From the NCBI GenBank assembly GCA_028687545.1, contig JAQTZZ010000023.1:1-61104 (forward strand): DNA of 61,104 nucleotides. The letters are read 5' to 3'. Position 1 is the stretch's first letter; each line of letters opens with the position of its first letter. The notes below the pieces were generated by a model that searched no databases, was not told where the DNA came from, and saw only the letters and a program-made list of their open reading frames with translations. Made by a program: the position numbers and the translations under genes. Source of the DNA: Candidatus Wallbacteria bacterium. GTDB taxonomy: Bacteria; Muiribacteriota; JAQTZZ01. Of the stretch, positions 1,661 to 37,036 are shown in pieces.

Positions 1661-2323
1661 ATGGATTTTAAAGCAGTGATATTTGACCTGGACGGCACCC
1701 TGCTCAATACCCTTGACGACATTGCCGACGCAATGAACAGGGTCCTGAACAGGATGGGGTTTCCCCAGCATGAGACTGAAAAGTACAAGTATCTGGTCGG
1801 GGAAGGTGTTGATCTTCTGGTGGAAAGGGCACTGCCTGCCTCCTGCAGCAACCTGGACCTGATCGCTGCCTGTCAGCAGGCTTTTGTGGAGACATACAGC
1901 GAATTCTGGTCGGTTAAGACCAGACCTTATGACGGCATTCCTGAGCTGCTTGACACTCTCACTGATCTGGAAATGAAAATGGCAGTACTTTCCAACAAAA
2001 ATCATGACATGACACAGAAGATGGTCCGGGAGCTTCTGCCAAGCTGGCTCTTCGACATGGTGCTTGGCGCGAGGCCGTATGCTCCGAAAAAACCCAATCC
2101 ATCCAGCGCCCTGGAAATTGCCGATGCCCTCAGGCAGCCTTTGTCTAAAATTGTTTTTCTGGGCGACTCCGGAATCGACATGAAAACTGCGGTCGGGGCA
2201 GGGATGTATCCTGTAGGAGCTCTCTGGGGTTTCCGGAACAAAGATGAACTGGCAGCCCATGGTGCCATGCGGATGATCGAAAAACCCGTGGATTTGTTGA
2301 AATTTCTACTGGAAAAGGATTAG
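1661..2323 (+). CDS. gph: HAD-superfamily phosphatase, phosphoglycolate-phosphatase-like
   Basis: Cytoplasmic HAD hydrolase that dephosphorylates a small phosphorylated metabolite, possibly 2-phosphoglycolate produced during repair of 3' ends. Motif I FDLDGTLLNT gives the Asp nucleophile, motif II is VLSNK, the lysine motif is KKPNP and motif IV is FLGDSGIDMKTA; the inserted helical cap (about residues 15-85) marks the Gph-like subgroup. I chose the ATG preceded by GGAAGGAG with four bases of spacing over an earlier in-frame GTG that overlaps the upstream stop and has no such site. The product is 220 residues. Substrate cannot be set from sequence; neighbouring exonuclease III fits a repair-linked role by inference only. 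Confidence 0.88.
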   Translation: MDFKAVIFDLDGTLLNTLDDIADAMNRVLNRMGFPQHETEKYKYLVGEGVDLLVERALPASCSNLDLIAACQQAFVETYSEFWSVKTRPYDGIPELLDTLTDLEMKMAVLSNKNHDMTQKMVRELLPSWLFDMVLGARPYAPKKPNPSSALEIADALRQPLSKIVFLGDSGIDMKTAVGAGMYPVGALWGFRNKDELAAHGAMRMIEKPVDLLKFLLEKD

Positions 2324-33063: not shown

Positions 33064-34719
33064 ATGAAGCATTTTCTTTTGCTTTTCACTATATCCTTCA
33101 TTTTATCATGCCAGGCAGCGATTCCTGATCCACAAGCCTACGATTCCGGACTGATCACTGTGCCTGAAGATTATAGCACTCCTGCCGGCCGCACAATTGA
33201 AGTTTACTGGGAAAGGCTGAAGTGCTCAGGCACAAGTCAGGGGGCGGTCATCTGCATCAACGGCGGTCCCGGCTGTACACACGACACTTTTCACAATCTG
33301 GACATGACTACAGCATCTTACAAAGAAGATCATTTATCCAAACTGCGCGAAAAATTCGATGTTTATTATTTTGATCAGCGTGGTAACGGTGAATCCAGCA
33401 AAATCGATGAATCATCCATGGGTCTTTCTGCTGAAGTCCTGACCCTCAAATGCTGCGACAACCTGAAAAATCTGGAAGGTGTGCTGGAAATTTACCTGCA
33501 GGATATCGGGGAAACGCTTCCCACCATCGAGCAGCTGAACGCCCTGGCCGGCAACCTCAAATGCCCGTGCCGCGGGAATTATTCCATCACCGGCGATGCA
33601 CAGACCGGATACAGGCTCAAATGCGACAAGCATAATACAGTGCAGAATCCTGTTACAGTGCAGCCTGAAAATATCCAGCCTGCCAAGCTTGCCTGCTACG
33701 GCACTCCGAACATCTGCCGCGACATCGAGGAAATCCGCAAACAGGTGATAAAAAAAGACAGGATCGTGGTTTTCGGCGAATCATACGGCGGCATGGTCGC
33801 TCTTTCTTATGCCACTTTGTTTCCGGGCAGCGTTGAAAAGCTGATCATCCACGATTCAGCTGCCAGTGACGACTATTACACCAGCCTGCCGGCCAACTGC
33901 GACGATAACATCAAGCTGCTGGACGGAACCATCCACCAGGGGATCAGAAATAACTACCTCACTTCAATCAAGAAATTCGACAGCCAGGAAGTGGAACTGC
34001 CTGATGGTGTCAATCTGAGCTCAGACGAATTCCTGGCTCTGGTCAGAGGTCTGACCTACAGCATGGAAGGCCATGCGATGGTAGCTAAGATAGTGGACGA
34101 AATCGCCAGGAACGGCTCGTCAGAGACTCTCAACCTGATCCTGCAGCTGATGGGAGGCGGTACGCGTACTGACCGGGCTCTGGAACAGAACGAGAATGTA
34201 TACAAGATTACAGTCGCCCAGGAAATGCAGGATGACAAGGCTGTGGAAAGCGCAGCTGCCCAGAACGGCACATTGGAGATTTATACATACAGATGGCTGG
34301 ACAAGATGAGCTGCCAGGGAATCGCGGCATTCAGAAAACAATCCGGGCTCAACCAGTTCACCGGCTATAATGTCACTGAAAAGTTCTCACAGTTGAAAAT
34401 GCCTGTGCTTGTATTTGTAGGAAAATTCGACCCGATCACACCTCAGAAGTACGCGGAGCAGATCAGCAAAGGTATTGGTTCAAATTGCGAATTGGTGCTG
34501 CTGGAAAAAAGCGCACATGCCGGACTGATCGAGCAGAACGATCTGGTGATTCCGAAGATCATGTCATTCTTAACTGGTAAAGAGCTGCCTGCAGAAGTGG
34601 CGGAACTAAATACCGGTTATCCGGAAATCAAGCGGAGCTTCACCAGGGAAGATGTGGCAAGGATTTACCTGGAAAACATGAGATATGGCAACTCCCGGCA
34701 ATCTGATCCAGGATTCTGA
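33064..34719 (+). CDS. Secreted alpha/beta hydrolase with pseudopilin-like insertion
   Basis: 551-residue exported hydrolase related to proline iminopeptidases and TAP-like peptidases. The signal sequence ends at ILSCQ, a weak lipobox. Core motifs are NGGPGCTHD (oxyanion loop), FDQRGNGES, nucleophile GESYGG (Ser240), GKFDPITP (Asp456) and KSAHAG (His485). Between the FDQRG strand and the nucleophile elbow lies an insertion of about 90 residues carrying the Cys/His module seen in two other proteins: Cys130, Asn133, Glu142, Tyr144, LKCPCRGNY from Cys167, and Cys187-D-K-His190. GGGGGA precedes the ATG and a TATAAT lies at 33021-33026. It probably trims peptides at the cell surface. Confidence 0.85.
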   Translation: MKHFLLLFTISFILSCQAAIPDPQAYDSGLITVPEDYSTPAGRTIEVYWERLKCSGTSQGAVICINGGPGCTHDTFHNLDMTTASYKEDHLSKLREKFDVYYFDQRGNGESSKIDESSMGLSAEVLTLKCCDNLKNLEGVLEIYLQDIGETLPTIEQLNALAGNLKCPCRGNYSITGDAQTGYRLKCDKHNTVQNPVTVQPENIQPAKLACYGTPNICRDIEEIRKQVIKKDRIVVFGESYGGMVALSYATLFPGSVEKLIIHDSAASDDYYTSLPANCDDNIKLLDGTIHQGIRNNYLTSIKKFDSQEVELPDGVNLSSDEFLALVRGLTYSMEGHAMVAKIVDEIARNGSSETLNLILQLMGGGTRTDRALEQNENVYKITVAQEMQDDKAVESAAAQNGTLEIYTYRWLDKMSCQGIAAFRKQSGLNQFTGYNVTEKFSQLKMPVLVFVGKFDPITPQKYAEQISKGIGSNCELVLLEKSAHAGLIEQNDLVIPKIMSFLTGKELPAEVAELNTGYPEIKRSFTREDVARIYLENMRYGNSRQSDPGF

Positions 34720-34720
34720 T

Positions 34721-34856
34721 ATCGGCTGAAGACTTGTTCCTGCGGAGGCGTTCAAAGGCGTTGCAGTATTTATGCTAGAAGCAGAATCCCGCCGAGGCCA
34801 ATTGCCGAGGCATTCGCAGCCGAAGATAGCCGGAGCAGGAATAAGTCTTCGGCCAT
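34721..34856. repeat. Structured element with 20-bp terminal inverted repeat
   Basis: The arms GGCTGAAGACTTGTTCCTGC (34724-34743) and GCAGGAATAAGTCTTCGGCC (34835-34854) are reverse complements with two mismatches. The 91 bases between contain further short repeats (GCCGAGGC twice, GGCGTT twice) and a smaller CCGAAGA/TCTTCGG pair that competes with the outer arms. It could be a MITE-like element or a structured RNA after the hydrolase gene. The rest of the gap to the RRM gene holds only the terminator at 34920-34943. Confidence 0.55.
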
Positions 34857-34919
34857 TTGATTCAATTCCAATAATATGACCAGCTGAAGCAACGATCTGG
34901 ATGATAGCTGGACATGAAA

Positions 34920-34943
34920 AGAGACCGGTGTTATCCGGTCTCT
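34920..34943 (-). terminator. Terminator of first RRM gene
   Basis: AGAGACCGG and CCGGTCTCT form a nine-base stem with a six-base loop. On the minus strand TTTTC follows the stem, so it ends the RRM gene transcript. Confidence 0.8.
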
Positions 34944-35015
34944 TAATGTTCCCAGTCGAAATTGTTCTTGTAAGTTTAGAAGCTGTTGAAACCCGTCAGG
35001 GTTTTGTACAGCTGA

Positions 35016-35294
35016 TTAATACCTTCTCGGACCTCTGTTTGAGGGTCCGCCGGTGCGGGGCTGCTGAGGCTTGGCTTCGTCGATCTTGAGTGTGCGGCCA
35101 TTGATTTCCTGATTGTTCAGGGCAGCCATGGCTTTTTCGGCTTCTGCCGTATCGTTCATTTCAACAAAGGCAAAGCCTTTGCCTTCGATGACTTTAACGT
35201 CTTTTACAGTGCCGTGCTGAGAGAAGAGGTTGGTCAGCTCTTCCGAGGTGGTGGAATAGGGGAGATTTCCCACGTACAGTCTGGGTGTCTTCAT
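35016..35294 (-). CDS. RRM-domain RNA-binding protein A
   Basis: 92-residue single RNA-recognition-motif protein. RNP2 is LYVGNLPYS and RNP1 is KGFAFVEM, with the remaining core SEELTNLFSQHGTVKDVKVI and ALNNQEINGRTLKIDEAKP. The tail is short, with Arg/Gly (GPSNRGPRRY). It is about 90 percent identical to the neighbour gene at 35.5-35.8 kb, so they are a recent tandem duplicate. Such proteins are cold-induced RNA chaperones in cyanobacteria and others. Its leader contains a conserved block with CTCCTT, able to pair with its AAGGAG, so translation is likely controlled. A terminator follows. Confidence 0.94.
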   Translation of the reverse strand: MKTPRLYVGNLPYSTTSEELTNLFSQHGTVKDVKVIEGKGFAFVEMNDTAEAEKAMAALNNQEINGRTLKIDEAKPQQPRTGGPSNRGPRRY

Positions 35295-35400
35295 TTGGTT
35301 CTTGCTCCTTGAGAATTTTTCCGCTTGAACGAAAGGAGTGCGAAATCATGACTGGGTAAAGATTCGTACAACTTTCTCATAGCTACCTATATGTTATTCG
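35295..35400 (-). promoter_or_regulatory. Conserved leader of RRM gene A, anti-Shine-Dalgarno
   Basis: On the minus strand a block of about 60 bases with AGAAAGTTGTACGAATCTT and CGCACTCCTTTCG is shared with the other RRM gene. AAGGAG (35305-35310 in plus coordinates) is the ribosome-binding site; CTCCTT at 35333-35338 is its exact complement. Upstream, ACATAT with TTGCAA 18 bases before suggests the promoter. Confidence 0.65.
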
Positions 35401-35459
35401 GATTTCTCAGGATTGCAAGCTTTAAATTTTAATAATTTTGTAAACCGCTGACCTAAATG

Positions 35460-35487
35460 AAAAGGGCCGGATATATCCGGCCCTTTT
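35460..35487 (-). terminator. Terminator of second RRM gene
   Basis: AAAAGGGCCGG and CCGGCCCTTTT pair perfectly around ATATAT, giving a palindromic stem with T residues on each strand. It separates the two RRM genes and ends RRM gene B. Confidence 0.85.
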
Positions 35488-35514
35488 GTTGGTTCCAGTC
35501 AAACCGAGAGGAAA

Positions 35515-35808
35515 TTAGTATCTGCGGGGTGTTCTGTTGGAGTTTCCGCCGCCGTATGATCCGCCAGTGCGGGGCTGCTGCGGCTTGGCTTCGTCGATCT
35601 TGAGTGTGCGGCCGTTGATTTCCTGATTATTCAGGGCTGTCATGGCTTTTTCAGCCTCGGCAATATCATTCATTTCGACAAAGGCGAATCCTTTGCCTTC
35701 AATGACTTTCACATCTTTCACAGTGCCATGCTTGGAAAACATGCTGTTAAGATCCTCGGTCGTTGTGGAATAGGGAAGGTTTCCTACGTACAGTCTGGGC
35801 GTTGTCAT
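35515..35808 (-). CDS. RRM-domain RNA-binding protein B
   Basis: 97-residue paralogue of RRM protein A. RNP2 LYVGNLPYS and RNP1 KGFAFVEM are unchanged; differences cluster in TEDLNSMFSKHG and in the glycine-richer tail GGSYGGGNSNRTPRRY. Function should be the same, single-strand RNA binding or chaperoning. Its leader repeats the anti-Shine-Dalgarno element and its AAAGGAG is eight bases before the ATG. A TTGATT-16-TAATAT promoter is visible further upstream on the minus strand. Each copy has its own terminator, so they are independent transcription units rather than an operon. Confidence 0.94.
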   Translation of the reverse strand: MTTPRLYVGNLPYSTTTEDLNSMFSKHGTVKDVKVIEGKGFAFVEMNDIAEAEKAMTALNNQEINGRTLKIDEAKPQQPRTGGSYGGGNSNRTPRRY

Positions 35809-35910
35809 TTAACGAGCTCCTTTGGTTTTTTGTAGCCTGTCGAAAGGAGTGCGAGATTCTGACTGGAAGATCCGTACAACTTTCTTATAGCTAAACCTAT
35901 ATTATCCGCT
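35809..35910 (-). promoter_or_regulatory. Conserved leader of RRM gene B, anti-Shine-Dalgarno
   Basis: The leader holds the same block as gene A (AGAAAGTTGTACGGATCTT, CGCACTCCTTTCG). The ribosome-binding site AAAGGAG (35817-35823 in plus coordinates) is complementary over seven bases to CTCCTTT (35843-35849). Confidence 0.7.
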
Positions 35911-35954
35911 TTTTTCTAAAAATCAAGTACTTTCGAAAATAAAATGAAAAAAAA

Positions 35955-35983
35955 TTGCCACAGGCAGGCCTAAAAGATATATT
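35955..35983 (+). promoter_or_regulatory. Promoter of fmdB-ymdB-helicase operon
   Basis: TTGCCA (35955-35960), 17 bases, TATATT (35978-35983), ending 31 bases before the FmdB start codon. Confidence 0.55.
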
Positions 35984-36014
35984 TTAAGAACATTCAGGAG
36001 AAAGCGGAGGGGAG

Positions 36015-36215
36015 ATGCCGATTTTTGTTTTTACATGTCAAAAATGTCATCACGATTTTGAGGAGCTGCTTGGCATGGTATCAGGAGAGCAGAAAATCAA
36101 GTGCCCTAAATGCGGTTCCGAGGATACCAGAAAGTCCCCGGCTTCGTTTACTGCGACCAAAGGGAAAGCTTCCTGCGGAACTTGCGGCGGCGGGTCGTGC
36201 AGTCACTGCCATTAG
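36015..36215 (+). CDS. FmdB-family zinc-ribbon protein
   Basis: 66-residue small zinc-ribbon protein of the FmdB/putative regulatory family. MPIFVFTCQKCHHDFEEL gives the first Cys pair and KIKCPKCGSEDTRK the second, with the PASF sequence after it. The tail GKASCGTCGGGSCSHCH has extra Cys and a His and may bind another metal. The role is unknown; members are often close to DNA-repair or methylation genes. GGAGGGGAG precedes the ATG. The YmdB-like phosphodiesterase follows 38 bases on, probably in the same transcript. Confidence 0.9.
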   Translation: MPIFVFTCQKCHHDFEELLGMVSGEQKIKCPKCGSEDTRKSPASFTATKGKASCGTCGGGSCSHCH

Positions 36216-36253
36216 TATTTAAAACAGCTCCTTCAGTTTAATGGGATTGATTG

Positions 36254-37036
36254 ATGAAGATACTATTCATAGGTGACGTTTTCGCAAAACCAGGCCGCAA
36301 AGCTGTGGAAGACCTGCTGCCTGTTCTGATCTGCAGGCATCTTCCGGATCTGGTGATTGCCAACATCGAAAACGCTGCCCATGGTTCTGGGATTTCGGCT
36401 CAAACTCTGGACTTTTTTAATTCTCAGGAAATCGATGTCTATACAACAGGGAATCATGTGCTGGAAAAACCGGATGCCCTGGAGCTTCTGAACAATGAAC
36501 CGAAACTGATCAGGCCTGCGAATTATCCGCCGGGTTTTCCGGGTAGAGGTTATGCTGTCTTTGAGACCCGGAAAAGAGTGAAAGTAGCTGTTGTCAATCT
36601 GCAGGGCACAGTCTTTATGCCCAGGATCGAATGCCCCTTCAGAACCATGGACAGAATTCTGAATGAAATCGGCAGCAGCACAAATCTGATCTTTGTCGAT
36701 TTTCACGCAGAAGCTACTTCTGAAAAAAGGGCATTGGGCTATTATCTCGACGGAAGGGTCAGTGCTGTGATCGGTACCCATACTCATGTGCAGACCGCAG
36801 ATGAGGAGATACTCCCTAAGGGAACGGCATTCCTTTCTGATGCAGGAATGACAGGACCTCATCATTCCATCATAGGCATGAAAAAGGAAATCATCCTGGA
36901 GAAATTCCTGAGCCGCCTGCCTCAGAAGTTCGAGCCTGCCGCAAAGGGAAACATCCTTTGTGGAGTCCTGGTAGAACTTGATGAGCGGAATGGACGCGGA
37001 ATCGGGATTTTGCGCATCAGGGAGAGGCTTGATTGA
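36254..37036 (+). CDS. ymdB: YmdB-family metallophosphoesterase
   Basis: 260-residue cytoplasmic phosphodiesterase; members hydrolyse 2',3'-cyclic nucleotides and influence biofilm and mRNA stability in Bacillus. Family motifs are MKILFIGDVFAKPGRKAV, IENAAHGSGIS, TTGNHVLEK, NLQGTVFMP, DFHAEATSEK and GTHTHVQTADE, which supply the di-iron ligands (Asp, Asn, His). Start is the ATG; a TTG one codon earlier is less likely. Its stop overlaps the helicase start by one base (TGATG), so coupling is likely. Length is normal. Confidence 0.93.
   Translation: MKILFIGDVFAKPGRKAVEDLLPVLICRHLPDLVIANIENAAHGSGISAQTLDFFNSQEIDVYTTGNHVLEKPDALELLNNEPKLIRPANYPPGFPGRGYAVFETRKRVKVAVVNLQGTVFMPRIECPFRTMDRILNEIGSSTNLIFVDFHAEATSEKRALGYYLDGRVSAVIGTHTHVQTADEEILPKGTAFLSDAGMTGPHHSIIGMKKEIILEKFLSRLPQKFEPAAKGNILCGVLVELDERNGRGIGILRIRERLD

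Follow-up and report, generated by a model that had tools for sequence, protein, structure and literature searches.

The RRM gene pair and its leaders

The window, by which we mean the whole stretch of 61,104 nucleotides of Candidatus Wallbacteria DNA analyzed here, contains two RRM genes arranged in tandem on the minus strand. Gene 1 (35515..35808) encodes a protein of 97 amino acids with a single RRM and a short Gly/Arg-rich tail (PF00076, 78.8 bits), and gene 2 (35016..35294) encodes a protein of 92 amino acids (PF00076, ~79 bits). The two proteins are identical at 71 of their 80 N-terminal residues. Scores against the NCBIfam model NF058537 (Rbp_regulator) are 79.2 bits for gene 1 and 79-81 bits for the pair, below the model cut-off of 100. 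The genome holds a third RRM gene (L003, contig C59), with a leader that differs from those of the pair and contains a strong, unrelated hairpin (AAAATGCC/GGGCATTTT, about 1690-1790, minus strand).

Each gene of the pair is preceded by a promoter-like element on the minus strand, TTGATT-16-TAATAT for gene 1 (35899..35926) and TTGCAA-16-TAACAT for gene 2 (35391..35418). Both elements were read by eye and are absent from the listing of the consensus scan; the former places the predicted start of the RNA of gene 1 near 35893. A terminator-like palindrome, AAAAGGGCCGGATATATCCGGCCCTTTT, likewise recognized by eye and absent from the scan output, lies 3' of gene 1 (35460..35487, minus strand). Because each gene has a promoter-like element of its own and the palindrome follows gene 1, the two genes are probably transcribed separately. 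The palindrome at 35460-35487 is GC-rich and nearly identical when read on either strand, and another GC-rich terminator-like palindrome is located 3' of gene 2 (about 34920-34944, minus strand).

A sequence-only reading of this DNA had proposed that the two genes share a leader of about 60 nt with two conserved blocks, the second of which could mask the ribosome-binding site. Both blocks were located, on the minus strand. Block 1 lies at 35867..35885 before gene 1 (AGAAAGTTGTACGGATCTT) and at 35359..35377 before gene 2 (AGAAAGTTGTACGAATCTT). Block 2 (TCGCACTCCTTTCG in both leaders) is positioned at 35841..35854 and 35330..35343, where it holds the possible anti-Shine-Dalgarno (anti-SD) sequences CTCCTTT and CTCCTT, respectively. 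The corresponding Shine-Dalgarno (SD) sequences are AAAGGAG (35817..35823) and AAGGAG (35305..35310), also on the minus strand. At 0 mismatches, no further copy of either block was found in the 4.54-Mb genome.

That retention of the leaders goes beyond drift is borne out by a comparison of the two copies, which as paralogues are not independent observations: the leader core shows 5 differences in 53 positions (about 9%), compared to 14 of 34 fourfold sites (41%; Fisher p = 0.001). The 3' parts of the two coding sequences are also near-identical, so that patchy gene conversion between the copies is conceivable and could have occurred.

The two blocks form the arms of a predicted hairpin

Based on folding, shuffle tests, and pair counts, the leaders are predicted to form a hairpin that extends over 35833..35893 before gene 1 (TAGCT..GGCTA, beginning at about the predicted transcription start) and over 35321..35385 before gene 2, both on the minus strand. 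Block 1 constitutes the 5' arm and block 2, with its conserved CTCCTTTC, the 3' arm. The predicted inner stem sets 5' GAAAG-UU-GU-A-CGRAU against AU-Y-U-CG-C-AC-UC-CUUUC, and a looser outer stem, UAGCU/GGCUA (core UAGC/GCUA), surrounds it. The apical loop holds CCAGUCA, which occupies 35860..35866 in the leader of gene 1 and 35349..35355 in that of gene 2 (minus strand) and is identical in L034, a leader from another genus that is described below.

Pairing of the 5' arm with the 3' segment was more stable than in dinucleotide-shuffled sequences, with p = 0.007 for gene 1, 0.05 for gene 2, and 0.011 for L034, and the stability of the whole 5' part was borderline in the three leaders (p = 0.05, 0.20, and 0.05). 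Across the two copies in the window, 33 of 34 pair cells hold, compared to 30-53% when the partner is slid. Only two substitutions separate the inner helices of the two copies, and these are each other's partners, converting G22-C42 to A22-U42. With two sequences a column-shuffle control is uninformative, and the weight of this observation is that of two changes falling on partner columns among 24 stem columns, about 1 in 23. A transcription terminator within the leader was considered and rejected, given that there is no T-run after the 3' arm.

A related leader in another genus and the distribution of the leader

Our survey of RRM genes covered 57 relatives, including one genome (G001) of the same family, with three RRM genes. 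The leader of one of these, L034, resembles the leaders in the window in the order of its motifs, AGCCATGAGAAAGTT, ATC, and CCAGTCA. In its fold, UGAGAAAGUU is paired with AGCUUUUUCA, and the pairs that close the loop are CAUC/GAUG. The stem has CAG/CUG in place of UAG/CUA of gene 1, as well as a G-U pair in place of a G-C pair. Among the three leaders, of which two are paralogues from one genome, the pairing between the blocks includes two compensatory pairs; pairs for all three leaders were read from the folds and not counted by a tool, since in the MAFFT alignment L034 has its 3' arm displaced by three columns from the pairing register. In a protein tree, L034 is placed apart from the gene pair and groups weakly with the third RRM gene of the window's genome, and the leader has therefore persisted through some reshuffling of the paralogues.

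With only the two window copies as input, a hairpin model returned L034 as its best non-self match (E = 0.016 in 24 kb), and it failed to pick out L034 at genome scale. A model of all three leaders (R2), run on 40 genomes of the phylum and on 382 relatives that included other phyla, yielded just these three at E <= 0.01. They come from two genera, and all of them precede RRM genes. L034 is part of this model, which makes its recovery circular, but not the absence of the leader elsewhere. We found no copy before genes other than RRM genes, as would be expected of a regulon, in the genome or in the relatives searched. Two motif-pattern matches in viral contigs, in which we found no RRM gene, were taken as chance matches (model E = 0.57). 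Thus, in this genome and 382 relatives the leader is specific to RRM genes, a pattern that is expected of autogenous control and argues against a general cold-shock regulon.

Complementarity to the Shine-Dalgarno sequence

As the sequence-only reading had noted, block 2 contains an exact complement of the SD sequence of each gene (CTCCTTT/AAAGGAG, 7 nt, for gene 1 and CTCCTT/AAGGAG, 6 nt, for gene 2), and the spacer separating the two elements has indeed diverged between the copies. An SD complement of at least 6 nt within ~95 nt upstream occurs in 1 of the 25 other genes in the window that have an SD sequence, and one of 7 nt in none of the 25. In the window as a whole, CTCCTT is found 23 times on both strands, compared to 48 times expected from shuffles.

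The conclusion that had been drawn from this complementarity, selection on pairing, must be divided. Selection on a paired leader structure is supported, namely for block 1 with block 2. It is not supported for CTCCTT with AAGGAG, for which the duplex energy of the SD with the 3' leader segment did not differ significantly from shuffles (p = 0.16 for gene 1, 0.15 for gene 2, and 0.78 for L034). Nor did the predicted covariation between CTCCTT and AAGGAG among homologues materialize: there is no compensatory change, and L034, in which CTCCTT is replaced by CTTTTT, can retain the pairing of CUUUUU with AAGGAG only via two G-U pairs and not above chance. Masking of the SD as a general property of bacterial RRM leaders was also rejected, with 15 of 85 leaders reaching p <= 0.05, a mean p of 0.45, and an excess attributable largely to the type A leaders described below.

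The 3' arm of the hairpin uses CUUUC of the anti-SD, and the hairpin and the SD mask are therefore mutually exclusive. Of the two, the hairpin formed by blocks 1 and 2 is the structure for which the leader sequences provide the better evidence, and pairing of CTCCTT with AAGGAG is a possible alternative fold. Both folds are predicted for the leaders in the window, and which would prevail varies with the length folded: the masked fold prevails for gene 1 when about 20-30 nt of coding sequence are included, for gene 2 with 60-90 nt, and for L034 never.

Predicted response to temperature

An RNA thermometer had been among the functions suggested for the leader. Predicted heating speaks against this, as it moves most leaders toward the masked state rather than the open one. 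The SD of gene 1 would stay masked or shift toward masking, and that of gene 2 would be half open throughout. For the window-type and the type A leaders alike, most are predicted to pass from the open hairpin to the masked fold upon warming, with a shift that is small for gene 1 and L034. This direction is opposite to that of a heat thermometer and the same as described for cspA. Cold-biased switching of the leader is compatible with these predictions.

A candidate switch under the control of the RRM protein

Taken together, we place roughly even confidence in the interpretation that the leader is a cis-regulatory hairpin, perhaps a two-state translational switch, that is probably under autogenous control by the RRM protein. 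According to this model, each RRM gene would have its own promoter and a 5' leader of ~85-90 nt, which would fold from its predicted 5' end into a long imperfect hairpin with CCAGUCA in the loop. As long as the hairpin stands, block 2 would leave the ribosome site unmasked. Once it opens or gives way to another structure, CUCCUU(U) would become free and could close the ribosome site by pairing with AAGGAG, such that translation would be the controlled step. The input may be the RRM protein, acting via the loop or an arm, possibly with a bias toward the open state in the cold. The RRM protein is the most likely ligand judging from leader sequences that were found only before RRM genes in everything searched, and autoregulation, another of the earlier suggestions, is compatible with the data. 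A precedent may be RbpB, an RRM protein of Bacteroides thetaiotaomicron, for which CLIP data place a site in the RbpB mRNA itself, "implying the potential for autoregulation" (PMC11697453).

An alternative that we regard as unlikely is that the leader senses temperature by itself in the manner of cspA, with a cold form that exposes the ribosome site and without a protein ligand. That most leaders of both types are predicted to shift from open to masked as the temperature rises would accord with this, as would the cold-response boxes in cyanobacterial rbp 5' UTRs (PMC9333190) and the finding that a stand-alone cold-shock protein was not detected in this genome, where the sole CSD matches are two within one 471-amino acid frame (G000 contig C11:27632-28231; L080, L081). 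However, a shift in this direction is expected from any pair of folds with unequal helix lengths, it is small for gene 1 and L034, and the response is a predicted one.

It is rather unlikely that the 5'-terminal hairpin merely stabilizes the mRNA against nucleases or sets its folding, with SD complementarity as a by-product of a pyrimidine-rich arm. Such a role would fit a hairpin that starts at the predicted start of the RNA and is the best-supported structure of the leader, as well as the weak SD complementarity of L034. It would leave unexplained, however, the restriction of the leader to RRM genes and its invariant CCAGUCA loop, the latter of which may be due to chance with three leaders.

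We consider it still less probable that CTCCTT and AAGGAG form a resting mask which hides the ribosome site until heat, as in a thermometer, or a factor opens it. The complementarity of 6-7 nt is exact in both copies, G-U pairs maintain the pairing in L034, and gene 1 is predicted to adopt the masked fold when 30 nt of coding sequence are included. Against this, the pairing does not surpass shuffles, compensatory change is absent, a better-supported hairpin competes with it, and the SD of gene 1 is predicted to be still ~94% paired at 60 C, so that heating fails to open it.

The least probable interpretation is that the leader has no function and is a residue left by tandem duplication of the genes or by gene conversion. 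It could appeal to the tandem position of the copies and to a near-identical 3' coding part resembling a conversion tract, but it is at odds with the far lower divergence of the leader core than of fourfold sites. It is also at odds with the presence of both motifs and the fold in another genus, where they precede an RRM gene that the protein tree does not place closest to the pair.

Relation to known leaders of RRM genes

Chlorobi-RRM RNA is located before RRM genes. The corresponding motif, RF01697, was rated a probable RNA and a probable cis-regulator (Weinberg et al. 2010, PMC2864571). It has in common with the window leader, which lies 5' of an RRM gene, that both are structured RNAs linked to RRM genes. 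The two differ in phylum, and the sequence and loop of the window leader are its own. An Rfam scan of 34000-37000 with E up to 5 gave no match of RF01697 to the window leader, and none was found at the gathering threshold in the related loci. Two weak Rfam matches fall on the terminator palindrome (35456-35494) and thus outside the leader.

For the cyanobacterial rbp genes (rbpA1/rbp1), conserved boxes in the 5' UTR have been described for the cold response (Maruyama et al. 1999, as cited in PMC9333190), whereas a cold response of the window leader is a prediction. We observed no counterpart of its hairpin motif by eye in the cyanobacterial loci that we inspected. Leaders of the cspA type adopt mutually exclusive mRNA folds, of which the cold form frees the ribosome site (reviewed in PMC9450479). 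They resemble the window leader in possessing a long 5' UTR, in preceding the gene of a small RNA-binding protein, and in having two exclusive folds with an open cold form, both of which are predicted for the window leader. By contrast, the window genes encode an RRM rather than a cold-shock domain, the sequences are unrelated, and the temperature response in the window is a prediction only. The closest known elements are thus Chlorobi-RRM RNA and the cyanobacterial rbp 5' UTRs, and the window leader is a new example among the structured leaders of bacterial RRM genes, a known kind of leader.

Little is known of the control and the RNA targets of bacterial RRM proteins. A leader that was encountered solely ahead of RRM genes and that contains an invariant loop provides a concrete candidate binding site, CCAGUCA. 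Should the leader indeed be a cold-biased switch regulated by its own RRM protein, it would parallel the control of cspA, and would do so in a bacterium for which we found no stand-alone cold-shock protein.

Type A leaders and other RRM leaders of the phylum

A second type of leader, type A, was present 14 times in 13 genomes of another family of the same phylum (f5), each time before an RRM gene (MKIYVGNLPYS...). In our alignment A1, these leaders (L082:944-1039, L095:1286-1383, L020:1714-1809, and 11 more) share the conserved sequence GAGUAAGUGUG. Their 5' hairpin, CGCA.TTAT..AC:GT..GTAA.TGTG, has 96.6% of cells paired, compared to 13-57% when slid, and includes two compensatory pairs. It encloses TTCTCC, the alternative partner of which is the SD sequence GGAGAA. 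The pairing of anti-SD with SD comprises 84.6% of cells, compared to 36-60% when slid, and the outer pair, in those leaders that form it, is A-U, G-C, or U-A. In folds predicted at 37 C, the 5' hairpin is formed in 11 of the 14 leaders and the SD hairpin in 3, and several type A leaders exceed shuffles in the stability of both halves. At this temperature L095 and L082 are predicted to adopt opposite states. No Rfam match to the type A leader was found in the loci scanned.

Homology of type A to the window leader was rejected, as model R1 gave no significant score on the window leaders. Despite the absence of detectable homology, the two have in common an anti-SD inside a 5' hairpin, an alternative hairpin of anti-SD and SD, and their restriction to RRM genes. 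Judging from the sequences, the evidence for a two-state design is stronger elsewhere in the phylum, through type A, than in the window leader. We tentatively raise the possibility, which we think less probable than its contrary, that RRM genes of this phylum evolved two-state leaders at least twice from unrelated sequences, with an anti-SD that is kept in a 5'-terminal hairpin and would otherwise close the ribosome site, and that the RRM protein, the cold, or both would set translation of the RRM gene itself. The 14 type A leaders in 13 genomes constitute a larger set in which to address the identical question.

Two other sets of RRM genes in the phylum have conserved leader groups of their own, one comprising L087, L088, L096, and L103 (MSSKIFVGNLPFS...) and the other L005, L007, L101, and L113 (M(N/K)IYVGNLPYSATEEQL...). 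SD complementarity was not above chance in either group. In L101, which comes from a relative in the same phylum, positions 1626-1801 downstream of an RRM gene match group II intron D1-D4 (RF02001, 46.8 bits).
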